64,000 nucleotides of DNA, from positions 2,542,001 through 2,606,000 of the forward strand of contig NZ_CP024955.1 of the NCBI RefSeq assembly GCF_002804065.1, given 5' to 3'. This DNA comes from Kyrpidia spormannii. GTDB lineage: Bacteria > Bacillota > Bacilli > Kyrpidiales > Kyrpidiaceae. A program made the position numbers and the translations under genes. The notes under the pieces are model-generated. The model saw nothing but the letters and a program-made list of their open reading frames with translations, ran no database searches and was not told where the DNA came from. Below, in pieces: positions 45,532 through 63,004 of this stretch (within the stretch, counting starts at the first letter, position 1; each line of letters begins with the position of its first letter).

Positions 45532-45680
45532 GTTGACCTCCTCACCCCTTTTGGCGGGGGATTCCTTCCTGCCACCAGAGGCCTTGTTGCACCCCTTGGA
45601 TCGGTCGAACGACCGACTCCCCGGCTCTACACCGGAGAACAGGCGATCCGGGCCAGTCCAGCCCTTAATATGTTCATCGC
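45532..45680 (-). ncRNA. Putative omega-RNA of the IS1341-type TnpB
   Basis: From the last tnpB codons through the right end, with stems GGTCGTTCGACC-like and CCCCCGCCAAAAGGGG near the end. The guide would be the host bases after the terminal TCAA(C), starting GAAAAACAGG. Position-based call. Confidence 0.5.
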
Positions 45681-46826
45681 TCCCACTGTGTCGGCATTGC
45701 CCTCATACCCGCACCTCTCGCATCGGAATGTCGATTGCGTCGGCCGATTCGCCGGGCTTTTGTGCCCACATTCCGGAACCGGACAAGTCTGGCTCGTGTA
45801 CGGGGCCGGTACGGCCCCCAGCCAGCCTCCCAACCAGTGGAGCTTGTAGCCCAAGAACGTTTGAAACATGAACCACCCTTGGTCCAGGATCGCTTTGTTC
45901 AGCCCGCTCTTCGCCCGCACGTTCTTTCCCGGATTCTCCCTCGTCCCCTTGGCCGACTTGCTCATGTTCTGGATCCGCAAATCCTCCACAAACACCATCG
46001 CGTGGGTTTTGCTGATGGCCGTGGAGGTCTTGTGCAGAAAATCCCGCCGGGCATTCGCGATATGCGCATGAAGACGCTGAATCCTTGCTTTTTGCTTTTG
46101 CCAGTTTCGCGAGAACCGTTTCTTCCGCGACAACTTCCGCATTTCCCAAGCCAGTTTCGTTTCGTGCCGACGGAACCATCCCGGCGCATCGACAAACGTG
46201 CCGTCCGACAACGCCGCAAAATGCACAATTCCCCGGTCGATCCCCACAGCCGACTCCGACGGGTGAACCGGCTCCGGCACGTCGATCTCCGTCTGGAAAG
46301 AGATGAACCAGTGCCCGGCTTGCCATGTTACCGTGGCATTCCGAATCGTCCCATCGATGGTCCGGGACTTGCGGAACTTCACCCACCCGATCTTGGGCAG
46401 GAAAACCTTTGGCAAGACACACCGCCCGTCTGCATCCTTAGTCGACAGGTTGAGCTTGATCTGTTTCGGGTCCGGAAAGCGCAGGCCCGCCTCGTCCCCG
46501 TTCTTTTTCTTGAAGGTCGGGAAGCGCGCCGGGTTGGACTTGTCAAACGCCGCCCGGATTGCCCGATCCAGGAACTTGAGCGTCCATTGCAAAGGGTGCA
46601 CAGGGGCGTTGGCCAAAAAACCGTATTCCTCGCTGTGTCTCCAGAGTGTCAGGAGCCGGGCAAGCTCCTCATACGAGAGTAAAGGGTACCCGGCCTCCAG
46701 CCGCCCCTTTTGCAAGGCCAGCGCCTTGTTCCAGACCAACCGCGCACATCCCCGGTAACGGGTGAGGCACTGGGATTGTTCGGTTGTGGGTTCCAAACGG
46801 AATCGAAAGGACTTGAGAATTTTCAT
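45627..46826 (-). CDS. tnpB: RNA-guided nuclease TnpB (IS1341 type)
   Basis: About 399 residues from ATG 46826 (MKILKSFRFRLEPTTEQ). RuvC-I GIDRGIVHFAAL, RuvC-II VFVEDLRIQNMSK, zinc finger CPVPEC...CERC, RuvC-III NADTVGAMNIL. Catalytic triad present and frame intact. Confidence 0.92.
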   Translation of the reverse strand: MKILKSFRFRLEPTTEQSQCLTRYRGCARLVWNKALALQKGRLEAGYPLLSYEELARLLTLWRHSEEYGFLANAPVHPLQWTLKFLDRAIRAAFDKSNPARFPTFKKKNGDEAGLRFPDPKQIKLNLSTKDADGRCVLPKVFLPKIGWVKFRKSRTIDGTIRNATVTWQAGHWFISFQTEIDVPEPVHPSESAVGIDRGIVHFAALSDGTFVDAPGWFRRHETKLAWEMRKLSRKKRFSRNWQKQKARIQRLHAHIANARRDFLHKTSTAISKTHAMVFVEDLRIQNMSKSAKGTRENPGKNVRAKSGLNKAILDQGWFMFQTFLGYKLHWLGGWLGAVPAPYTSQTCPVPECGHKSPANRPTQSTFRCERCGYEGNADTVGAMNILRAGLARIACSPV

Positions 46827-46908
46827 GGTTCTAGGATACCCCGAATGTTCGAGTCTCGCAAACGCATATTCGCCAAAAGAGCCGCTCTTCCTCTGTCCGC
46901 TCAATGAC

Positions 46909-47040: not shown

Positions 47041-47680
47041 TCAGTTCAACTCGGACTGCTGAACGGAGGCTGGGTGATCCACCGGCAACTTTTTTCGCAG
47101 GGTGAGAATCAAAAGGCCCGCCACAAGAAGAGAAAATGCGAGATATAGATACGCTCCCGTAAAGGAACCCGTCCGGTCTTTGACGAATCCCACGAGATAA
47201 GGACCGACCCATCCCCCCAGATTTCCCACGGAATTGATCAGGCCCACGGCGCCAGCAGCGGCGGCCCCTGACAAGAAAGACGTGGGATACGTCCACCAGA
47301 CTCCCATTCCCACATACACACCGACGGCGCTGACGCAGACCAAAATAAAGCTGAGCAACGGGTTTGCAACAAAGGGCCCGAGTCCCATCCCCACGGTGCC
47401 GATAAACATGGGAATCGCCACGTGCCACCGTTTCTCACCGGTTCGGGCCGAAGAATTGCCGGTGACGATGAAGCCGATCAGCGCCACGGCCATGGGGATG
47501 ACGATGAGCCAACCGATGCTGGCGTTGGACCAACCGGACACCGATTTGAGCACCGTTGGCATCCAAAACCCAAAACCCCAGAATCCTGTAATCCACATGA
47601 AGTAGATAAAACACAGTTCTCGTCTCAACAAAATTGCGCTCGGCGCACCGACGTCAGGGTATTCTCCGGACAGTGGGCTG
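47041..47680 (-). pseudogene. C-terminal half of an MFS (anion:cation symporter type) transporter
   Basis: LRRELCFIYFMWITGFWGFG then FWMPTVLKSVSGWSNASIGW resembles the start of the second six-helix bundle of ACS-family MFS carriers; six helices follow and the stop is normal. The first six helices are missing, and the sequence upstream (47680-47760) is unrelated, so the gene is 5'-truncated. Confidence 0.7.
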
Positions 47681-47762
47681 AATCCCCTCTGTGTGCCCAG
47701 ACAGTAAACGATACATCTTCCAAAAGAAATCCCTCCGCGCCATGGATACATTTTCCTGTAAA

Positions 47763-47810
47763 CAAAAAGAGAGTTGAGGCCCGCTTCCTGAAGGCTCCAA
47801 CTCCCTCTCT
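47763..47810 (-). terminator. Terminator of the eut operon
   Basis: On the minus strand AGAGAGGGAGTTGGAGCC pairs with GGCCTCAACTCTCT and is followed by TTTTGTTT. It lies about 100 bp after the last eut-locus gene. Confidence 0.75.
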
Positions 47811-47906: not shown

Positions 47907-48890
47907 TCACTCCATCCGAAGACTTTCCCGGAGAGATTCCATGGATTGAACCAGCGCGTCCGTCATGCCGGCCACCTCGCGAATTCGCCGGTCCTGACCG
48001 GCGGCGGCCTCGAGAACAACGCTCATGTCCCCGATACTTTGGGAGACCGCACCGACAAGGGAGTGCAACTCATCCCGAATGTGGCCGGCGGATTCGTGCA
48101 CCTGTTCGGATAAACGGCGGATTTCGTCGGCAATGACCCGGAATCCCAGACCGGACGATCCGGCCCGGGCAGCTTCCAGACCCGCGTTAAGGCCCAGGAT
48201 TTTCGTCTGATTCGCCACCTTTTGTACGAATTGGGTGAGTTCCTGAACTCCCCGAAGGCGGTGTTGCACATCTTCAGACGACGCTTCAAGCTGTTTATAC
48301 CGGCCGATGAAGGCGTCGTGGGCACGGCTGAGATCCGCCGTGGCTGAAGCGAGAGCCGCACTGACTTCGGCAACCCGGCCGCCGATCGACTGAACCTGGA
48401 CCAATACCCTCTGCAGGTGCGCCCGGCTTTCCTCCGCAGCCCGCCGGGCTTCAGCTTCACGGAGGACCTTTTCCATGTCCCGCTCGACGATGAGGCTACC
48501 GATGGTTCGCCCGTCTCCCCCCGTGAGCGGCACAACATCCTGGCGAACGCGGGTGCCTTCTTGACTGACCGCCTCAATGCCGTAGGCCGGCCGCCCGGTC
48601 CGGTGGACCTCAATGACCGCCGGCTCCTGTTCCATCCGGGCCGTCTGACCCACGGGAGACTCCCGATACAAGGACCGAGTCACACTTGGACGACCGTGGG
48701 CGACCACCAGTGCCGTTTCCGCATCCAACGGCATATCGATAAAGATGTCTGCCTGTACAGCGTCCGCAATAAGAGGTAACCAATCAACCAGCGCTTCCAG
48801 GCGCCTCCGGTCTTCTTCGGATATCTCTGTTGACCCCGGCAGCGATTGTAAGAGCCTGGGACGCTGCGTTTCCTCCCGCATGCTTAACAC
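47907..48890 (-). CDS. Soluble methyl-accepting-type protein with EutW-like sensor domain
   Basis: About 327 residues without membrane helices. The N-terminal 140 residues ([20 protein letters not shown] ... [20 protein letters not shown] ... [20 protein letters not shown]) match the N-terminal sensor module of EutW in this window (LQLIADLTQANVFVDCPLPS ... PVVGKIAF-like ... VVPIKNDKGETIGSLILEQD). Then a coiled coil and a short MCP hairpin, [20 protein letters not shown] and [12 protein letters not shown]. Starts inside the mdh stop (GTG 48890 or ATG 48881, ribosome site AAGGAG). It probably couples the eut signal to chemotaxis. Confidence 0.8.
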
Positions 48891-49840
48891 CAAACTCCTT
48901 CACTTTTGAGATGATCCCGGGCCGCGGCCACGGCCCTGCGAATGGTCTCCGCCGATCGGTTCAAGGCCGCAAGCTCCCCGTCATCCAGATTCAGTTCGAT
49001 CATCCGCTCGACTCCGTCGCCGCCAAGCACCGCGGGAACGCCGAAGTAGATATCGGACAGTCCATATTGCCCGTTGAGGTAAACGGACATGGGCAAGATG
49101 CGCTTGCGGTCCTCAAGCACCGATTGAACCATTTGAACGGTGGAAGCGGCCGGAGCATAATAAGCGCTCCCTTGTTTCAAGAGGGAGACGATCTCCGCCC
49201 CGCCCCGCTTGGTGCGTTCCACAATCTCCCTCAGCCGAGTCTGCGGAATCAGGTGATCCACCGGGACACAGCCGACATAGGCGTATCGAACCAAAGGAAC
49301 CATTTCGTCCCCGTGACCACCCAGTACGTACGCGTGAACGTCTTCCCCGGCAACTCCCAGCTCCTGGGCAATGAAAGTACGAAACCGGGACGAATCCAAC
49401 ACCCCGGACTGGCCGTAGACTCGGTTAGGGGGAAAACCCGACGCCCGAAGAGCTATGTAACACATGACATCCAGAGGGTTGCTCACCACGACAATGTGAG
49501 CCCGCGGAGAATAAGCGGCTGCCTGTTTTGCCGCCTCCCAGACAATCCGAGCGTTGGTTGCCGTGAGATCCTCTCGGCTCATGCCGGGCCTGCGGGCCAC
49601 GCCCGCCGTGATCACCACCACATCGGAATCGGCCGTATCTCTGTAGTGGGCGGTGCCTTTTACGTCATACGCCCATCCTTCCACCGGGCCCGACTGAAGA
49701 AGATCAAGAGCCTTCCCCGCCGCAAGACCTTCCACGACATCCATCAGAACCACATTTCCCAGCCCTTTGACCAACAGGCCGTGAGCCACCGCGGCCCCCA
49801 CATTCCCGGCACCAATTACTGTGATTTTCCTCCGTCTCAT
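48884..49840 (-). CDS. mdh: Malate (lactate/malate-type) dehydrogenase in the eut operon
   Basis: 318 residues. NAD loop [12 protein letters not shown] (about 8-19), Asp at the end of strand 2 (LMDVVEG), substrate loop [13 protein letters not shown] whose Arg pair is typical of malate dehydrogenase, catalytic His in [12 protein letters not shown]. Located 21 bp after the permease gene and before the MCP-like gene, so co-expressed with the microcompartment. No encapsulation helix is seen at either end. It could oxidise EutE-derived NADH or pull acetyl-CoA into the TCA cycle; role inferred. Confidence 0.88.
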
Positions 49841-49861: not shown

Positions 49862-51442
49862 CTAAGCCGACTGGCGAATGCGTTCGCGCACTTTCGCATA
49901 AGTACCGAGATGCGGGCCTGCAAATTGCTTCCTGATACTCACCACGTACCAAATCGTCAACAGGGCGAACACCGTCGCAAAAGTCGTTCCGGTCGCGTAA
50001 TGCAGTGTAAAATTATCCGTTAATTGTACATCGCTGGGAGCGATCACGAAAAGCACCGTGATAAAAGCGACCCAAAGAACGGCCAGGGTATTCACAATGG
50101 GACTCCAGCGTCCGAGATGCCAGGGGCCATTGTCTTCCATGCTCCACGCACCTCTCCACTGGGCCCGCAATTTGAGCAACAGAGGAATGGCGTAGGAGCC
50201 GTACAAGCCGATCGTGCTGATCGATGTCACCACAGCATACACATTGTCGGCCAGAGCGCAACAGAACGCCAGGACCACGCTCAGCCAGATGGCCGCAGCC
50301 GGTGTGCGAAACTTCGGACTGACCCGCGACCACAGATAGGCAAACGGCATCCCGTTGTCTCGGGAGAAGGCATACATCATTCTTGAAATCGACGTCACCG
50401 AAGAAAGGCCGCAGAACCACATGGCGAGGGTGACCATCCAAAGCACAGCCTTCCCGAAAGCGCCGCCCATGGCCTGTTCGATGACCGTCATGAATCCGTT
50501 TCCGCCGGCGGCCGCCACGGCATTCGGATCTTTGATCGAAAGAGTGACCAAAACCAACATCAGATAGCCGAATATACTGGACACGGCCACCGACAGGTAC
50601 ACGCCCCAAGGGGATTTGACCCGGGACTCCACCGTCTCTTCACTGGTATGGGCCGACGCATCGTATCCGGTGTAGGTCCATTGAGCCTGGAGAAGGCCGA
50701 ATAGAAAGGCGAGCCAGTAAGGCACCCCAGGACCTGTTGCGGTCGAGAATCCCGTTTCAAACATATACGAGACATTTCGATCGGGTCCAAAATACACCAA
50801 GGCCGCAATCAACGCCCCGACGCCGATCATGTGGTACAAAGCCGACACGTCATTCAGTTTGGCCACCACCCGAATCCCCACATGATTCAAAACGGCGTGA
50901 CTGAGCAGAATCACCGCATACACCGCCAGCATCTGTGCCTTGGTCGGCTCGCCAAACAGAAGCGTCGACGCGAAAGTCGCGCACCCGAAATCAATCCCCG
51001 CCACAATGGTCACTTGACCCACCATGTTGAACCAGGCCGCATACCACCCCCACCCGGGACCACCCAAAATGGAGGCCCAATGATAAATGGCACCCGAGGT
51101 GGGAATGGCGGACGCCAACTCCGCCATCGAAGCGGCCACCATGAGGACGAAAATCGTCACCAAGGGCCAGCCGATGCCCATGACGGCTGGGCCGCCCTGG
51201 TTAAAACCATACCCGTACAAAGTCACCGCCCCGGTCAGAATCGAGATGATGGAGAATGAAATGGCGAAGTTGGAAAAACCACCCATATCCCTCAGAAGTT
51301 CCTGTTTATATCCAAAGGAAGCCAGCTCCCCGTCACCGTTTCCCGAACGGCGGGATTCCTGTACACTTCGATTGGCCCTATAACCGATACCCAGCATAAC
51401 GACCAGGGCAATCACCACCAACAACACACCAAGGACCATCAC
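49862..51442 (-). CDS. APC superfamily permease, probable ethanolamine importer
   Basis: 526 residues, about 12-13 helices. An extra N-terminal helix is followed by the APC core: MGGFSNFAISFSIISILTGA, GWPLVTIFVLMVAASMAELA, and TYTGYDASAHTSEETVESRV in the loop after helix 6, as in amino-acid/choline permeases of the AmaT/HnmT group. It stands where eutH is found in other eut loci. Substrate is inferred from the locus. Confidence 0.8.
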   Translation of the reverse strand: MMVLGVLLVVIALVVMLGIGYRANRSVQESRRSGNGDGELASFGYKQELLRDMGGFSNFAISFSIISILTGAVTLYGYGFNQGGPAVMGIGWPLVTIFVLMVAASMAELASAIPTSGAIYHWASILGGPGWGWYAAWFNMVGQVTIVAGIDFGCATFASTLLFGEPTKAQMLAVYAVILLSHAVLNHVGIRVVAKLNDVSALYHMIGVGALIAALVYFGPDRNVSYMFETGFSTATGPGVPYWLAFLFGLLQAQWTYTGYDASAHTSEETVESRVKSPWGVYLSVAVSSIFGYLMLVLVTLSIKDPNAVAAAGGNGFMTVIEQAMGGAFGKAVLWMVTLAMWFCGLSSVTSISRMMYAFSRDNGMPFAYLWSRVSPKFRTPAAAIWLSVVLAFCCALADNVYAVVTSISTIGLYGSYAIPLLLKLRAQWRGAWSMEDNGPWHLGRWSPIVNTLAVLWVAFITVLFVIAPSDVQLTDNFTLHYATGTTFATVFALLTIWYVVSIRKQFAGPHLGTYAKVRERIRQSA

Positions 51443-51772: not shown

Positions 51773-52039
51773 TCAGCCCCCTTTTTCCACCGAATCCACG
51801 ATCCCGATGACAGCGGCGTCAATGGGCCACTGTTCCCCGTACACAAGCCGGGCGGAGCTTCCCTGAGTCACGATCACCATGTCGCCCAACCCTGCCCCCA
51901 CCCGGTCGGCCGCCACCACGGGTTCCCCCCGTCCTTGTCCATCGGGCCCGTGGGGCTGTACCACGAGGAACTTGATCCCCACGAGAACTTCTTCCTTCCG
52001 GGTCGCCCATACGTTTCCGACCACACGCCCGATAATCAT
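51773..52039 (-). CDS. eutN: EutN/CcmL pentamer vertex protein
   Basis: 88 residues from ATG 52039 ([17 protein letters not shown]). [30 protein letters not shown] and SSARLVYG are the BMC-P motifs. It closes the vertices of the shell. Overlaps the upstream gene by 4 bp. Confidence 0.93.
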
Positions 52040-52788
52040 CGATCCGCCCTCTCTCCACCTTCCATAATCTTCAGTGCCACACTCTGATCCCGTAGCCATT
52101 CCCGTGCACCCGGAGTCAGCCTCACACCTTGCGGGAGCACCAGTTCGTCCCCCGGCTGCAACCGCCTCCTGGCCAAGTCCTTGACCGTCCAATATGTCGC
52201 CCGGCTCACCCGATATTGAACAGATTCGATACTTCGGGATTCGGCGGAGAGGTCAGATATGTTCATGCGTCCGAACCGGTCGGCTGGGGGACGCCAGCCC
52301 GTAACGAACTCCTCCCAGCAAACCACGTCCACACCGTAGTGCTGCAACGCTTCAGCGTAATCCCGCAACAATTTCAGGTAGGGACGGACGGAAGCCTCGG
52401 GCCGAAAGATGACCGACAGCTGCGGATTCAGAACCATGCTGACCGGCATGGAGGCCAGAAGTGCTTTCGCCAACAGTGCGCCGGCGCGATCCGTCGTCAA
52501 TCCCAACGCTCCGCGGACCAGAATCGATTGATCGCACGGGCCGACGACCAGACATTCGGCTTGTTTCAGCAAGGATTCCGCGTCGGGATCCCGACCGTCG
52601 ACGATGACCGCTTCCCCGGACTTCTGAAGCACAGACTTGATTTCAGCCGACAACTCCTGCTCTTCCGGGCTTGGCGCCTGTCCCGGCAACCAAACAATCT
52701 GTAAACTCCCGTCTGCTGAATCCCCGGGGAAGCCTCGACGTTGCAACGCCTCGATTACGAGGTTGATCAAATCGCGGCGATCAACCAT
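52036..52788 (-). CDS. Ethanolamine utilisation protein, TIGR02536-like, unknown function
   Basis: 250 residues. Flavoprotein-like or Rossmann-like alternation in the first half (ESLLKQAECLVVGPCDQSIL, ALLAKALLASMPVSMVLNPQ); the C-terminus has an SAF-like strand and VKDLARRRLQPGDELVLPQG as in shell-associated eut proteins of Bacillota. It lies between eutM and eutN. Family assignment from memory of the locus type. Function unknown. Confidence 0.6.
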   Translation of the reverse strand: MVDRRDLINLVIEALQRRGFPGDSADGSLQIVWLPGQAPSPEEQELSAEIKSVLQKSGEAVIVDGRDPDAESLLKQAECLVVGPCDQSILVRGALGLTTDRAGALLAKALLASMPVSMVLNPQLSVIFRPEASVRPYLKLLRDYAEALQHYGVDVVCWEEFVTGWRPPADRFGRMNISDLSAESRSIESVQYRVSRATYWTVKDLARRRLQPGDELVLPQGVRLTPGAREWLRDQSVALKIMEGGERADR

Positions 52789-55867: not shown

Positions 55868-56914
55868 TCACTCCACAGACATCAGTTTCACTCCACTGGC
55901 CTTCTTTTCGATCATGGTCTTGACCACGGCGCCCAGATGGGCGCCCGCTTCAACAGGAGGCGTACCGGCGTCGTGAATGTTGGATACCACCATCCGATCC
56001 GCTTCTATGGTGCCTCGTCGCGGTCGATAACACAGGTACGCACTCATCGAATCGGCGGCGGCCAACCCCGGCCGCTCGCCGATGAGCAGGACGAAAGCCT
56101 CGGGCTGAAGCAGTTCCCCGATCTCGTCCATAATGGCCACGCGCCCTCGGCGAACGTAAAACGGCGTTCCCATCGAAAGCCCATATTGTTTTAACGATTG
56201 GCAAAGGGCCGGATAGACATCCTTCAGGTTCGTCATCACCGCCTGGGAACTGAGGCCGTCCGACACCACAACCTGCACCTGCGGACGCCTGACGCATTTG
56301 TGCTGGATCAAATGAACACTCTGCGGCGTCAACTTCCTTCCAAGATCCGGACGTCGAATATAGGTGTCCTTGTCGGCGGCCATGGTGTCGACCACAAACA
56401 ACCCAAACTCCTCCAGTACCGCTTCATCCACTTCCCCGTAGACGGCATCCACCGCAGCCGCGTGGTCTTCCCGAAAGGTGAGCAGAGTTTCGGTGCACGG
56501 CCTTGGTCCCGACCGCCCCACACCGATCCGAGCCGGAGTGGTGCGCAGCAGGTCTCGGAGGAGTCTTTGATCCCTGATTGCAACCCCGGACACTGTACAT
56601 CCTTTGATTTGCCCCTGAAAGGCGGGATCGACATCTTCTTCGGACAGAGCAGCGACTTCTCCTGTATTCAGCCGGATGCGACTCCCGCCCTCGTTTTCCA
56701 TCCCGCACACCTCGGAAGACCCACCATCCACACGGCCCGTCTCATAAGGCACCAACCTCGCCCGCAAGACCTGCGCCTCCTTTGAAGCGGAAGCCGCCTC
56801 AGTTCTTTCGGGATACGGCCTCCGGGAGATTGCCCCGTCCGTGGATCCGTCTTGAAGCCGATGGAGAACTCGTCGTACGATCTCCTGCACCTCATCCTGA
56901 ACGTTCCGGGACAT
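55868..56914 (-). CDS. eutC: Ethanolamine ammonia-lyase small subunit
   Basis: About 348 residues from ATG 56914. The amphipathic N-terminus SRNVQDEVQEIVRRVLHRLQ looks like an encapsulation peptide, followed by a long variable linker (about 22-95). The core includes ARIGVGRSGPRPCTETLLTF, VVSDGLSSQAVMTNL, and LLIGERPGLAAADSMSAYLC, the cobalamin-contact end. Works with EutB. Confidence 0.94.
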   Translation of the reverse strand: MSRNVQDEVQEIVRRVLHRLQDGSTDGAISRRPYPERTEAASASKEAQVLRARLVPYETGRVDGGSSEVCGMENEGGSRIRLNTGEVAALSEEDVDPAFQGQIKGCTVSGVAIRDQRLLRDLLRTTPARIGVGRSGPRPCTETLLTFREDHAAAVDAVYGEVDEAVLEEFGLFVVDTMAADKDTYIRRPDLGRKLTPQSVHLIQHKCVRRPQVQVVVSDGLSSQAVMTNLKDVYPALCQSLKQYGLSMGTPFYVRRGRVAIMDEIGELLQPEAFVLLIGERPGLAAADSMSAYLCYRPRRGTIEADRMVVSNIHDAGTPPVEAGAHLGAVVKTMIEKKASGVKLMSVE

Positions 56915-56925
56915 ACGCCACCCTC

Positions 56926-58293
56926 CTAATCGAACACGAAAAGCGTCGGATCGCCGGCCCGCTCCGTCAAGGCGCCGTGCCGTAAGATCCCCCGCTGCTC
57001 CAGCCACGCTTCGAATTCCGGAGCCGGGCGAAGTCCGAAGGTCTGCCGCAGGGCGGGAATATCGTGATAACTGAGAGATTGGTAATTCAACATACAGTCG
57101 TCGCCCATGGGCACGGCAATCACAAAATTCACCCCGGCCGCCGCCAAGAGCACTCCCAGTCCTTCGATGTCATTCTGGTCCGCCCTGGTGTGATTCGTGT
57201 AACACACGTCGACCCCCATGGGAATACCGTGCATCTTGCCCATGAAATGATCTTCAAGCCCCGCCCGGATCACTTGTTTCGCATCGTACAGATACTCCGG
57301 CCCGATAAACCCCACCACGGTATTCAAAATGAACGGATTCCAACGCCGGGCAAAGCCGTATTTCCGGGCTTCAAGGGTCACTTGGTCCACTCCGTGGTGT
57401 GCGTCCGCCGACAACTCGGTTCCTTGGCCGGTTTCGAAATACATCAGATTGGGCCCCGGGCTGGCACCCTCCCGCCGGATCAACTCGTGGGCTTCATCTA
57501 AGAGCGCCGCGCTGATGCCGAAAGAACGATTCGCTTCTTCGGTGCCGGCGATACTCTGGAAGATCAGGTCAACCGGAGCTCCCTGCTCCACCGCCTTCAT
57601 CTGGGTGGTCACATGCGCCAAAACGCAATTCTGGGTTGGAATGCCCCAGGCCCGGATACAATCGTGCGAAGCATGCATGAGGCGCTTCACACTCTCCACG
57701 GAGTCGTCCACCGGGTTGATGCCGATTACCGCATCCCCGACCCCGTAGGACAACCCCTCGCGAATGGACGCGACCACACCGTCCGCACTGTCGGTGGGAT
57801 GGTTCGGCTGCAGTCGGGAAGAAAGCGTCCCACGATGGCCGATGGACCCGTTGCAGCGGGTGATCACTTCAATTTTTTTCGCCGCATAGATCAAATCCAG
57901 GTTCGACATCAACTTTGCCGCCGCTGCAATCATTTCACTGGTCAATCCCCGGGACAAGCGGAGAAGATCGGTCCCCGACGCGCCGTCGGACAGAATGTAT
58001 TCCCGAAGCTCCGCCACGGTCCAACCGCGGACTTCCCGGTAAATTCGCTCATTGACCCCCTCGTCGATGATTCTGGACACCTCGTCGTCCTCCGGCGGGA
58101 TGAGCGGATTGTTGCGGATCTGTTCGAGCGTGGTTTCCGCCAGAACGCGCTTCGCCGCGATCCGTTCTTGGGCGGATTCGGCCCCGATTCCCGCCAGGCG
58201 ATCGCCGGATCGTTCTTCATTGGCCTTGGCGAATACTTCTTTAAGATCCCTGAATCCGTAACTTTGCCCCTGTACTTGTGCTGTCAGTTTCAC
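56926..58293 (-). CDS. eutB: Ethanolamine ammonia-lyase large subunit
   Basis: 455 residues, full length. GDAVIGINPVDDSVESVKRL, CVLAHVTTQMKAVEQGAPVD, FQSIAGTEEANRSFGI (substrate Glu), and QDDCMLNYQSLS-like end (MGDDCMLNYQSLSYHD). TIM-barrel adenosylcobalamin enzyme cleaving ethanolamine to acetaldehyde and ammonia. GTG start overlaps eutA by 4 bp. Confidence 0.96.
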   Translation of the reverse strand: MKLTAQVQGQSYGFRDLKEVFAKANEERSGDRLAGIGAESAQERIAAKRVLAETTLEQIRNNPLIPPEDDEVSRIIDEGVNERIYREVRGWTVAELREYILSDGASGTDLLRLSRGLTSEMIAAAAKLMSNLDLIYAAKKIEVITRCNGSIGHRGTLSSRLQPNHPTDSADGVVASIREGLSYGVGDAVIGINPVDDSVESVKRLMHASHDCIRAWGIPTQNCVLAHVTTQMKAVEQGAPVDLIFQSIAGTEEANRSFGISAALLDEAHELIRREGASPGPNLMYFETGQGTELSADAHHGVDQVTLEARKYGFARRWNPFILNTVVGFIGPEYLYDAKQVIRAGLEDHFMGKMHGIPMGVDVCYTNHTRADQNDIEGLGVLLAAAGVNFVIAVPMGDDCMLNYQSLSYHDIPALRQTFGLRPAPEFEAWLEQRGILRHGALTERAGDPTLFVFD

Positions 58294-59928: not shown

Positions 59929-60531
59929 TCAGGGATTTGCCGACCGTCTGTCGAACCGCAGTCGTCCCGCGATCACATCCTGGGCCATGCGCTCCAGGGA
60001 AACCCGCTGATTCATGCTTTCCGATCGCAACATTTGATACGCACTCTGTTCCGATAGTCCGTGTTCTTGCATCAGGATCCCCTTGGCCCGCTCGACCAAC
60101 TTTCGGATTTCCAGTTGTTTCTCAAGCCGATGAACATTGCACGAGAGTCGGTGAAGACGGTCTCCTTGGGCCAAGGCGATCTCGACGGCGGGGATGAGGT
60201 CGGACTCGCCGACCGGTTTCACGAGATAACCGAGCACGCCGGAGTTCTTGGCCTCTTCGATCAATGCCCCATCGCTGTACGCAGTCAACAGAACAATGGG
60301 GATCCCGAGTTTTTGGTGAATGATTCGGCCGGCTTTGACCCCGTTAATCTTTGGCATCTTCACATCCATGAGAACGAGATCTGGACGGTGACGATGGGCG
60401 AGTTCGACCGCCGATTCTCCGTTCCCCGCCTCGGCCACCACCTCGTAACCGTGCTCTTGCAATATCTCCCGGATGTCCATCCTCAGGATCGACTCATCGT
60501 CCACGATCATAATTCGGGCCCTGCTCATCAC
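59929..60531 (-). CDS. eutV: ANTAR-type response regulator EutV
   Basis: 200 residues. Receiver domain about 1-125 (IMIVDDESILRMDIREIL, phosphorylated Asp in DLVLMDVKMPKING, Lys in LVKPVGES), then the ANTAR helix bundle (LVERAKGILMQEHGLSEQSA, YQMLRSESMNQRVSLERMAQ). Phosphorylated EutV binds RNA hairpins and blocks terminators. Overlaps eutW by 38 bp. Confidence 0.95.
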   Translation of the reverse strand: MMSRARIMIVDDESILRMDIREILQEHGYEVVAEAGNGESAVELAHRHRPDLVLMDVKMPKINGVKAGRIIHQKLGIPIVLLTAYSDGALIEEAKNSGVLGYLVKPVGESDLIPAVEIALAQGDRLHRLSCNVHRLEKQLEIRKLVERAKGILMQEHGLSEQSAYQMLRSESMNQRVSLERMAQDVIAGRLRFDRRSANP

Positions 60532-61948
60532 TGGTCTCCCCTTTCGGAAACATCACGGTCGCCACGGTGCCGCCTTCCGGTCGAACCTGGATGTGAAAAA
60601 CCCCGCCGAGGTCGCACTCTGTCAGAGTCCGGACAATCTGCAATCCTAAACTCTCGCGGACCTGCCCTTCCTGAAAACCACAACCATCGTCCACCACCTG
60701 CAACAAGGCCCAGGACTCCTGATCGCCAATCTCTACAGCGAGCAACCCTTCCGTTCGATCGCGATACGCATGTTCCAAACTGTTTTGTATCAGTTCATTG
60801 GCCACCAGGGCCAAGGAAACCGCCCTTCCGGACGGCAGAACCAACCGCGCGCCCCGCACCTCGTATCGGATCCTGGGCGGATCCGCCGTCATACTGTGAA
60901 TCTGCATCCAACCGATCTTACGAACCACATCATGAAAATCCACCATCTCCACCCGGGATCCGGACAGAACCTCGTGAACTGCGGCGATGCTCATGATTCG
61001 ATTGAGGGTCTGCCGGTAATGCGCCTGCTGGTCTTCGGGACACCGCCGCATTTGCAGCCGCAAAAGACTTGCCACCGCTTGAAGGTTGTTCTTGACCCGG
61101 TGGTGGATTTCCTTGATCATGGCGGATTGAATCTGAAGTTGCCGCTCCTTTTCCCGCAGCTCGCTCACCTCGCGAATCATGACCAAGCCGGAGCGAGTCC
61201 CCGATGGATCCCACAACCCCACCGCGTGCACCTGGAAAACGCGCTTGCCCACCTCGGTTTCGTAACGCACTGCTTCACCTTCTAAAAATTGCAGACCCCG
61301 GATAAAAGGGAGGACTTTATCAAGTCGTTCCCCGATCAAGTGGGTAGAGGGTTGAAATTCGGTAATCAATGTAATTCCACAGGCGTTCACATAGGTGATC
61401 CGGCCTTGGTCATCTGTCAGGAATAGCGCATCCTGAATAACATCCGATAATGGAGAACGACCGGGAATATCGAAAAATACGTGACTGAGTTGTTCGACGG
61501 CTTCACTAAGAACCCGAACCCGAGCAGCATTATCAATCCACTCACTGATGTCCTGTTCCAATATCAATGACCCGATCGTTTCCCCCTTGTCGTTCTTGAT
61601 CGGAACCACACTTTGTTTCACGTGTTTTCCTTCTTGGGTAATCGCTCGATTGTAAGTGGTCACTTCGCCGGTTCGGTGTGTACGAGCCACCGCGGGTTCG
61701 TACGCGGCGAAAGCTATCTTGCCAACCACAGATTCACTATACAGCGAATGGCCCGAAACCGGGCTCGCTTCGGCAACCACAACTGCGTCGTCTCCACTGG
61801 GCAGAGGGCAGTCCACGAACACATTCGCTTGCGTCAGGTCTGCAATTAATTGCAAATGACGAGCAACATCCCGGATTCGGGCGACATCGTCGTCGCTGAG
61901 ATCGGTGCGCAAACGACAAACTTGGTCAAGTGCATCCATTCCGTTCAC
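60494..61948 (-). CDS. eutW: Ethanolamine sensor histidine kinase EutW
   Basis: About 484 residues, soluble. N-terminal sensor module (about 10-150), a PAS domain (DALFLTDDQGRITYVNACGI), HisKA_2 with the phospho-His in MIKEIHHRVKNNLQAVASLL, and an HATPase with NELIQNSLEHAYRD and DDGCGFQEG. GTG start at 61948 behind GGGAGG; an ATG further up at 61978 lies in the terminator stem and is rejected. Confidence 0.94.
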   Translation of the reverse strand: MNGMDALDQVCRLRTDLSDDDVARIRDVARHLQLIADLTQANVFVDCPLPSGDDAVVVAEASPVSGHSLYSESVVGKIAFAAYEPAVARTHRTGEVTTYNRAITQEGKHVKQSVVPIKNDKGETIGSLILEQDISEWIDNAARVRVLSEAVEQLSHVFFDIPGRSPLSDVIQDALFLTDDQGRITYVNACGITLITEFQPSTHLIGERLDKVLPFIRGLQFLEGEAVRYETEVGKRVFQVHAVGLWDPSGTRSGLVMIREVSELREKERQLQIQSAMIKEIHHRVKNNLQAVASLLRLQMRRCPEDQQAHYRQTLNRIMSIAAVHEVLSGSRVEMVDFHDVVRKIGWMQIHSMTADPPRIRYEVRGARLVLPSGRAVSLALVANELIQNSLEHAYRDRTEGLLAVEIGDQESWALLQVVDDGCGFQEGQVRESLGLQIVRTLTECDLGGVFHIQVRPEGGTVATVMFPKGETSDEQGPNYDRGR

Positions 61949-61965
61949 CTGGGCCTCCCTAAACG

Positions 61966-62017
61966 AAAAGGCGCCCATGGCAACAGCCGATGCAACTGTT
62001 GTCGGGCGCCGTTGCCC
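61966..62017 (-). terminator. EutV-controlled leader terminator before eutW-eutV
   Basis: Minus strand: GGCGCCC (62004-62010) and GGGCGCC (61970-61976) with an inner CAACAG/CTGTTG pairing, then TTTTCG. GGGC-AACGGC-GCCC (62004-62017) again makes a 4-bp stem and AxxGxx hexaloop whose 3' arm is the terminator's 5' arm. This would make eutVW expression autoregulated. Confidence 0.75.
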
Positions 62018-62525: not shown

Positions 62526-62867
62526 CTAAGAACGGGTGATGGCTGCCGGAGTAAAACCGAGTTGATCCCGCAAGAAACGGTTGATCGCTTCCATGGCCAT
62601 CTCCACTTCAGACACGGCTCCGACCAATACCAAACTTCCTGTAAACCGGTCGAGAAATCCAATGGTCACATTTGCTGCCTTCGCGGCAAGATCGCCGGCG
62701 ATGATCACCGTCTCACTGGGGGTCAGCGTCATGATGCCGAGGGCACCGCGCTCGGCCAGTCCGAGTTTCGTGTGCAGATCCGCATTGGGATTGGCGATGA
62801 GGTGAGACAACGTCACTTGCTTACCCGGCACAAACTCTTGAATAAACCGCTTCTTCTCTTCAGACAT
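62526..62867 (-). CDS. eutS: Permuted BMC-H shell protein EutS
   Basis: 113 residues. FIQEFVPGKQVTLSHLIANP and KLGLAERGALGIMTLTPSET, with IAGDLAAKAANVTIGFLDRF. EutS hexamers are bent and form shell edges. First gene of the locus, behind GGGGAGG. Confidence 0.94.
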   Translation of the reverse strand: MSEEKKRFIQEFVPGKQVTLSHLIANPNADLHTKLGLAERGALGIMTLTPSETVIIAGDLAAKAANVTIGFLDRFTGSLVLVGAVSEVEMAMEAINRFLRDQLGFTPAAITRS

Positions 62868-62892
62868 CCTTCCGCCCCTCCCCTTGGAAACG

Positions 62893-62951
62893 CAAAAAGC
62901 CGGAGCACCCGGGAATGACCATCTCCCGATGCGGTTCCGGCTTCATCGCCG
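62893..62951 (-). terminator. Leader terminator before eutS with competing hairpin
   Basis: Minus strand: AGCCGGA (62936-62942) pairs with TCCGGCT (62898-62904), with an inner CGGGA/TCCCG stem, then TTTTTGCG. Overlapping upstream, CGGC-GATGAA-GCCG (62938-62951) gives the same 4-bp-stem, six-base-loop layout as at eutW and eutA, with G at loop position 4 but G where A is expected at position 1. Confidence 0.65.
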
Positions 62952-62975
62952 CAGTAAACATCGCCTTTTTGGAAA

Positions 62976-63004
62976 ATTATATGCGATTGGAGACACTCCG
63001 TCAA
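62976..63004 (-). promoter_or_regulatory. Main promoter of the eut operon
   Basis: TTGACG (62999-63004) and a perfect TATAAT (62976-62981) with a 17-bp spacer on the minus strand. The -35 box lies inside the noncoding end of the racemase pseudogene region, so the operon promoter abuts decayed sequence. Confidence 0.82.

Follow-up and report, generated by a model that had tools for sequence, protein, structure and literature searches.

The ligands of most chemoreceptors are unknown, whereas the sensor kinase EutW has a known ligand, established for the kinase as a whole. We know of no ligand site in the GAF domain of EutW, and the literature that we found on this kinase holds no statement on whether its GAF or its PAS domain reads ethanolamine. 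Ethanolamine activates EutW, whereas AdoCbl affected neither EutW nor EutV in vitro (PMC5821096). Amine chemoreceptors have been described in Pseudomonas aeruginosa (TlpQ and PA4915); ethanolamine attracts this bacterium and PA4915-LBD might bind it, the receptor there not being settled (PMC10653921). TlpQ and PA4915, however, have other sensor domains, and no eut-operon sensor has been described for them. The initial annotation of the present locus knew of no described eut-dedicated chemoreceptor, and none was returned when the text of open papers was searched (most subscription papers lie outside this search); the main text of a taxonomy of microcompartment loci leaves chemotaxis unmentioned (PMC4207490).

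Short soluble chemoreceptors are already known with a variety of sensors, and what is new here is an EutW-type sensor on one of them. YfmS of Bacillus subtilis (9a72) carries an N-terminal alpha/beta sensor on a short MCP hairpin, with neither a HAMP domain nor a membrane segment. In YfmS-like short receptors the sensor gives a weak match to sCache_3 and not to GAF_PdtaS, and the literature that we found describes no eut link for YfmS. Another short receptor (L029, Diacid_rec-MCP) joins a sensor from a catabolic-regulator family (CdaR-type) to a short MCP hairpin; its sensor is nevertheless a sugar-diacid sensor, unrelated to eut. We also noted three short MCPs of about 290 aa (L020, L026 and L027) whose N-terminal domain is Rossmann-like (in L027 it matches GFO_IDH_MocA), and which, judging from their domains, are possible nucleotide- or metabolite-binding chemoreceptors.

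The window analyzed here, a stretch of 64,000 nucleotides from Kyrpidia spormannii, contains an eut operon with a soluble chemoreceptor gene at its end. Its features, in the order in which the operon is read and on into the flanking genes, are as follows:

62976..63004, minus strand: promoter-like site TTGACG-17-TATAAT upstream of eutS (consensus match only)
62526..62867, minus strand: EutS shell protein, encoded at the head of the run (assigned from sequence and position)
60494..61978, minus strand: EutW sensor kinase with GAF_PdtaS, PAS, HisKA_2 and HATPase_c domains (Pfam)
59929..60531, minus strand: EutV response regulator with an ANTAR domain (Pfam)
56926..58293, minus strand: EutB, ethanolamine ammonia-lyase large chain (PF06751, 700.8 bits)
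55868..56917, minus strand: EutC, ethanolamine ammonia-lyase small chain (PF05985)
52036-52788, minus strand: 250-aa protein inside the eut operon (no Pfam or NCBIfam match)
49862..51442, minus strand: amino-acid/amine permease, candidate for ethanolamine uptake (PF13520)
48884..49840, minus strand: malate dehydrogenase-like gene (TIGR01763, over cut-off)
47907..48890, minus strand: soluble chemoreceptor gene (Pfam, BLASTP, predicted structure)
47764..47810, minus strand: operon terminator, a long stem with a U tract behind it (-23.1 kcal/mol, z -2.2)
47044-47751, minus strand: truncated MFS transporter, next to the downstream end of the eut operon
45627-46904, minus strand: IS605-type TnpB, directly downstream of the eut operon

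The eut genes from eutS (62867) to the chemoreceptor gene (47907) run in a single direction, and the coordinates previously given for the chemoreceptor gene are correct; this gene and that of EutW both lie on the minus strand. Since the stop of the malate dehydrogenase gene overlaps the start of the chemoreceptor gene, and a strong terminator lies behind the latter, the eut operon ends with the chemoreceptor gene. EutS as a query finds eut loci, and the permease scores only 44 bits on a curated ethanolamine permease model. The malate dehydrogenase-like gene is an unusual eut companion: 0 of 80 EutW loci matched it in a neighbour search. A second, weaker promoter-like site precedes eutW and would allow for an additional transcript.

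The chemoreceptor has 327-328 residues, and we place its start codon at GTG 48890 (ATG 48881 and TTG 48893 are also possible). A plus-strand reading of the same interval was rejected on account of in-frame stops; codon use did not separate the frame from its antisense. Pfam places GAF_PdtaS (PF12282) at residues 21-152 (E 4e-27; 95.3 bits against a curated cut-off of 23.7) and MCPsignal (PF00015) at residues 205-319 (E 1.6e-18; 67.6 bits against a cut-off of 34.6). There is no transmembrane segment (top 19-residue hydropathy of 1.41, against 3.27 in a permease control) and no HAMP domain, the sensor passing directly into a short MCP hairpin, and this layout with a single N-terminal sensor is that of YfmS. 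PF12282 occurs in both the chemoreceptor and EutW, and Pfam bears out the earlier assignment of an MCP hairpin to the one and a HisKA_2 kinase to the other; lacking the HisKA_2 and HATPase_c output, the chemoreceptor does not qualify as an EutW kinase. EutW thus shares its GAF_PdtaS sensor subfamily and its operon with the chemoreceptor but has a PAS domain and a HisKA_2 kinase output in place of the hairpin.

An AlphaFold2 model, predicted from the GAF rows only (a combined alignment of GAF and hairpin was misaligned), has a confident GAF domain (pLDDT about 95), with the sensor at residues about 21-140, followed by a continuous helix (140-243), a tip (244-247) and a returning helix (248-326). 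The best whole-length match in the PDB is the YfmS-CheW model 9a72 (E 6e-9); as the long helix is of middling confidence and its superposition on 9a72 has a high rmsd, we limit the comparison to the order of the parts. The sensor superposes on that of Mycobacterium tuberculosis PdtaS (2ykf) with Z 13.4 and rmsd 2.1 over 113 residues (22% identity), and the predicted fold of the EutW sensor does so with Z 14.6; the YfmS sensor is the third-best fold match for the EutW sensor (Z 12.4). The predicted folds of both N-termini are thus PdtaS-like, and not the unrelated folds that would have spoken against a common sensor.

At the sequence level, the chemoreceptor and the resident EutW share 59 of 147 aligned residues (40%; BLASTP, E 3e-28), well outside chance expectation, which confirms the N-terminal alignment in the initial annotation, and all three motifs quoted there are present in both proteins. 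Thirty-nine EutW sensors yield 31 positions that are at least 90% conserved, and 26 of these are kept in the chemoreceptor, among them the charged or polar D52, S73, Y75, E89, Q110, E111, Q117, E136 and D138; the five changes, from EutW sensors to chemoreceptor, are L to I, A to G, V to P, I to L and L to A. A GTDB scan with the sensor alignment, which rested on one short pattern, returned 80 loci in which the matched genes were EutW-type kinases, nearly all adjoining eutB, eutC or eutV, and this ties the sensor subfamily to ethanolamine use. Judged by sequence, the chemoreceptor sensor derives from the EutW subfamily.

How it is related to the resident EutW is less clear. The initial annotation had proposed a duplicated sensor placed on two outputs. 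One sensor family with two outputs inside one eut operon, in a genome with flagella and Che proteins, is indeed what we find; that the chemoreceptor sensor is a duplicate of the one in the resident EutW is not established. Between the resident EutW and a homologue from another genome identity is 59%, against 40% between this EutW and the MCP sensor. In a 70-row sensor tree the chemoreceptor forms a long branch (2.07), weakly placed (95/70) next to a group that contains Bacillaceae EutWs as well as the resident EutW, and topology tests rejected neither sisterhood with the resident EutW (p-AU 0.375) nor sisterhood with a distant EutW (p-AU 0.533).

Such a long branch would also fit a functional soluble chemoreceptor whose GAF domain reads acetaldehyde, redox state, another amine or a nucleotide, and hence the metabolic state of the eut pathway in place of ethanolamine itself. 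The GAF domain of PdtaS reads Cu/NO via C53/C57, with c-di-GMP binding reported as well (PMC8131098), so the fold is adaptable. Nevertheless, the conserved EutW positions are retained in the chemoreceptor, and the PdtaS dicysteine motif CVAQC is absent, ALVVAHGRP standing in its place (via the EutW-PdtaS alignment); PdtaS, with its kinase output, has the fold in common with the chemoreceptor but not the Cu/NO site. We regard such a different ligand as unlikely. By analogy with EutW, the one basis for this assignment, the likely ligand is ethanolamine or a signal common to the two proteins. Cobalamin, which the initial annotation had offered as the other candidate, is an unlikely one and is disfavoured by the in vitro response of EutW to ethanolamine and not to AdoCbl (PMC5821096).

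Nine EutW kinases (L082, L090, L103, L104, L114, L121, L126, L142 and L161) have their HisKA box at ~166-204 instead of ~286, a spacing that leaves no room for a PAS domain. The existence of these short kinases suggests that the GAF domain may serve as sole input. The chemoreceptor would be a second, kinase-free setting in which to ask whether the GAF domain of EutW, and not PAS, reads ethanolamine. Eight of the nine (all but L114) lie in eut loci where no shell-protein matches were found nearby.

We also considered the signalling output. The genome encodes CheA and CheW within a flagellar/che cluster (named by sequence and gene order), two flagellin genes, and 14 MCPs including the chemoreceptor. 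Its hairpin retains all 17 positions at which an alignment with 20 other MCPs shows no variation. The tip deviates at 245 (S, mostly E/D elsewhere), 248 (L, R/K elsewhere) and 251 (R, mostly A/G elsewhere); given these residues and the long sensor branch, altered or weakened coupling of the hairpin is possible. GAF domains commonly dimerise, and two proteins with one sensor family in one operon might pair, so that the chemoreceptor GAF would bind that of EutW and tune the kinase rather than act on CheA. For such a role an MCP hairpin with a conserved tip would be superfluous, however, and the two sensors are only 40% identical; we hold this to be highly improbable.

Taken with the operon position, these features incline us, by a little, to read the protein as a cytosolic YfmS-type chemoreceptor with an EutW-type GAF domain, which closes the eut operon, reads ethanolamine or the signal read by EutW, and steers via CheA. 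In this scheme, the chemoreceptor GAF would bind imported ethanolamine, or the cytosolic signal to which EutW responds, and the helix that emerges from this GAF would pack differently; the hairpin tip would then alter CheA activity and thereby bias swimming. We infer the coupling to CheA/CheW and the effect on swimming. A single signal could so set eut expression via EutW-EutV and swimming via the chemoreceptor. The broader proposition, that a catabolic operon brings along a cytosolic chemoreceptor fitted with the sensor type of the operon's regulator, ethanolamine governing expression and swimming alike through a single type of sensor domain, we consider evenly poised. If true, it would tie motility directly, at the genetic level, to a microcompartment pathway, and the cell may steer towards a food whose use is encoded by the same operon. 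An EutW-type sensor on a chemoreceptor is also a rare case in which a ligand can be predicted beforehand.

We then asked how widespread the fusion is. No second GAF_PdtaS-MCP fusion came up when the proteins of about 1,300 sampled Bacillota genomes were searched; the samples were draws, the larger searches scored five candidates per genome, among which a fusion should rank first, and the late ones used stringent cut-offs. A single-protein GTDB scan with the chemoreceptor yielded no relatives, and a plasmid search gave no place covering 80% of the query. The initial annotation had suggested looking for the pair in other eut loci: the 80 GTDB EutW loci held kinases and no MCP, hence no fusion, and the MCP-type protein was likewise not found widely without eut genes. 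Together with the Bacillota searches, this contradicts a general eut pairing. In one genome (G536), a 365-aa candidate fusion was recognised as a short EutW that lacks PAS. In L088, L138 and L142, MCPs in the vicinity of eut genes were set aside as longer receptors (578-804 aa) of other architecture, and one in L145 as a 135-aa fragment, separated by several kb from eut. The sensor-MCP arrangement is so far known from one genome, and a single example gives no argument for function from conservation.

The other three genomes of the order, of which two are incomplete, lack EutB, and this absence, together with the neighbouring IS605 TnpB and truncated MFS gene, fits a gain of the eut locus by transfer. 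The chemoreceptor might then be an old fusion that arrived with the operon and has since lost its signalling, as its accelerated sensor, unusual tip residues, single occurrence and neighbouring TnpB and truncated transporter would allow. Against such decay, the frame is intact with every invariant tip residue retained, operon position and terminator are preserved, and the composition of the gene resembles the rest of the operon, although codon use does not discriminate. We therefore judge a receptor in decay to be quite improbable.

Lastly, we inspected the locus for regulatory RNA. A consensus pattern and a hairpin script found no EutV dual-hairpin target sites outside a coding match, and Rfam over 44-64 kb gave a single chance-level match, below its gathering score. 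The eutS leader (62868-62976, minus strand) contains a terminator-like stem, GCCGG...CCGGCUUUUU, whose fold is no stronger than that of shuffled sequences. GGCGAUG occurs twice in this leader, and the leader is possibly an attenuator of a form outside the EutV pattern.
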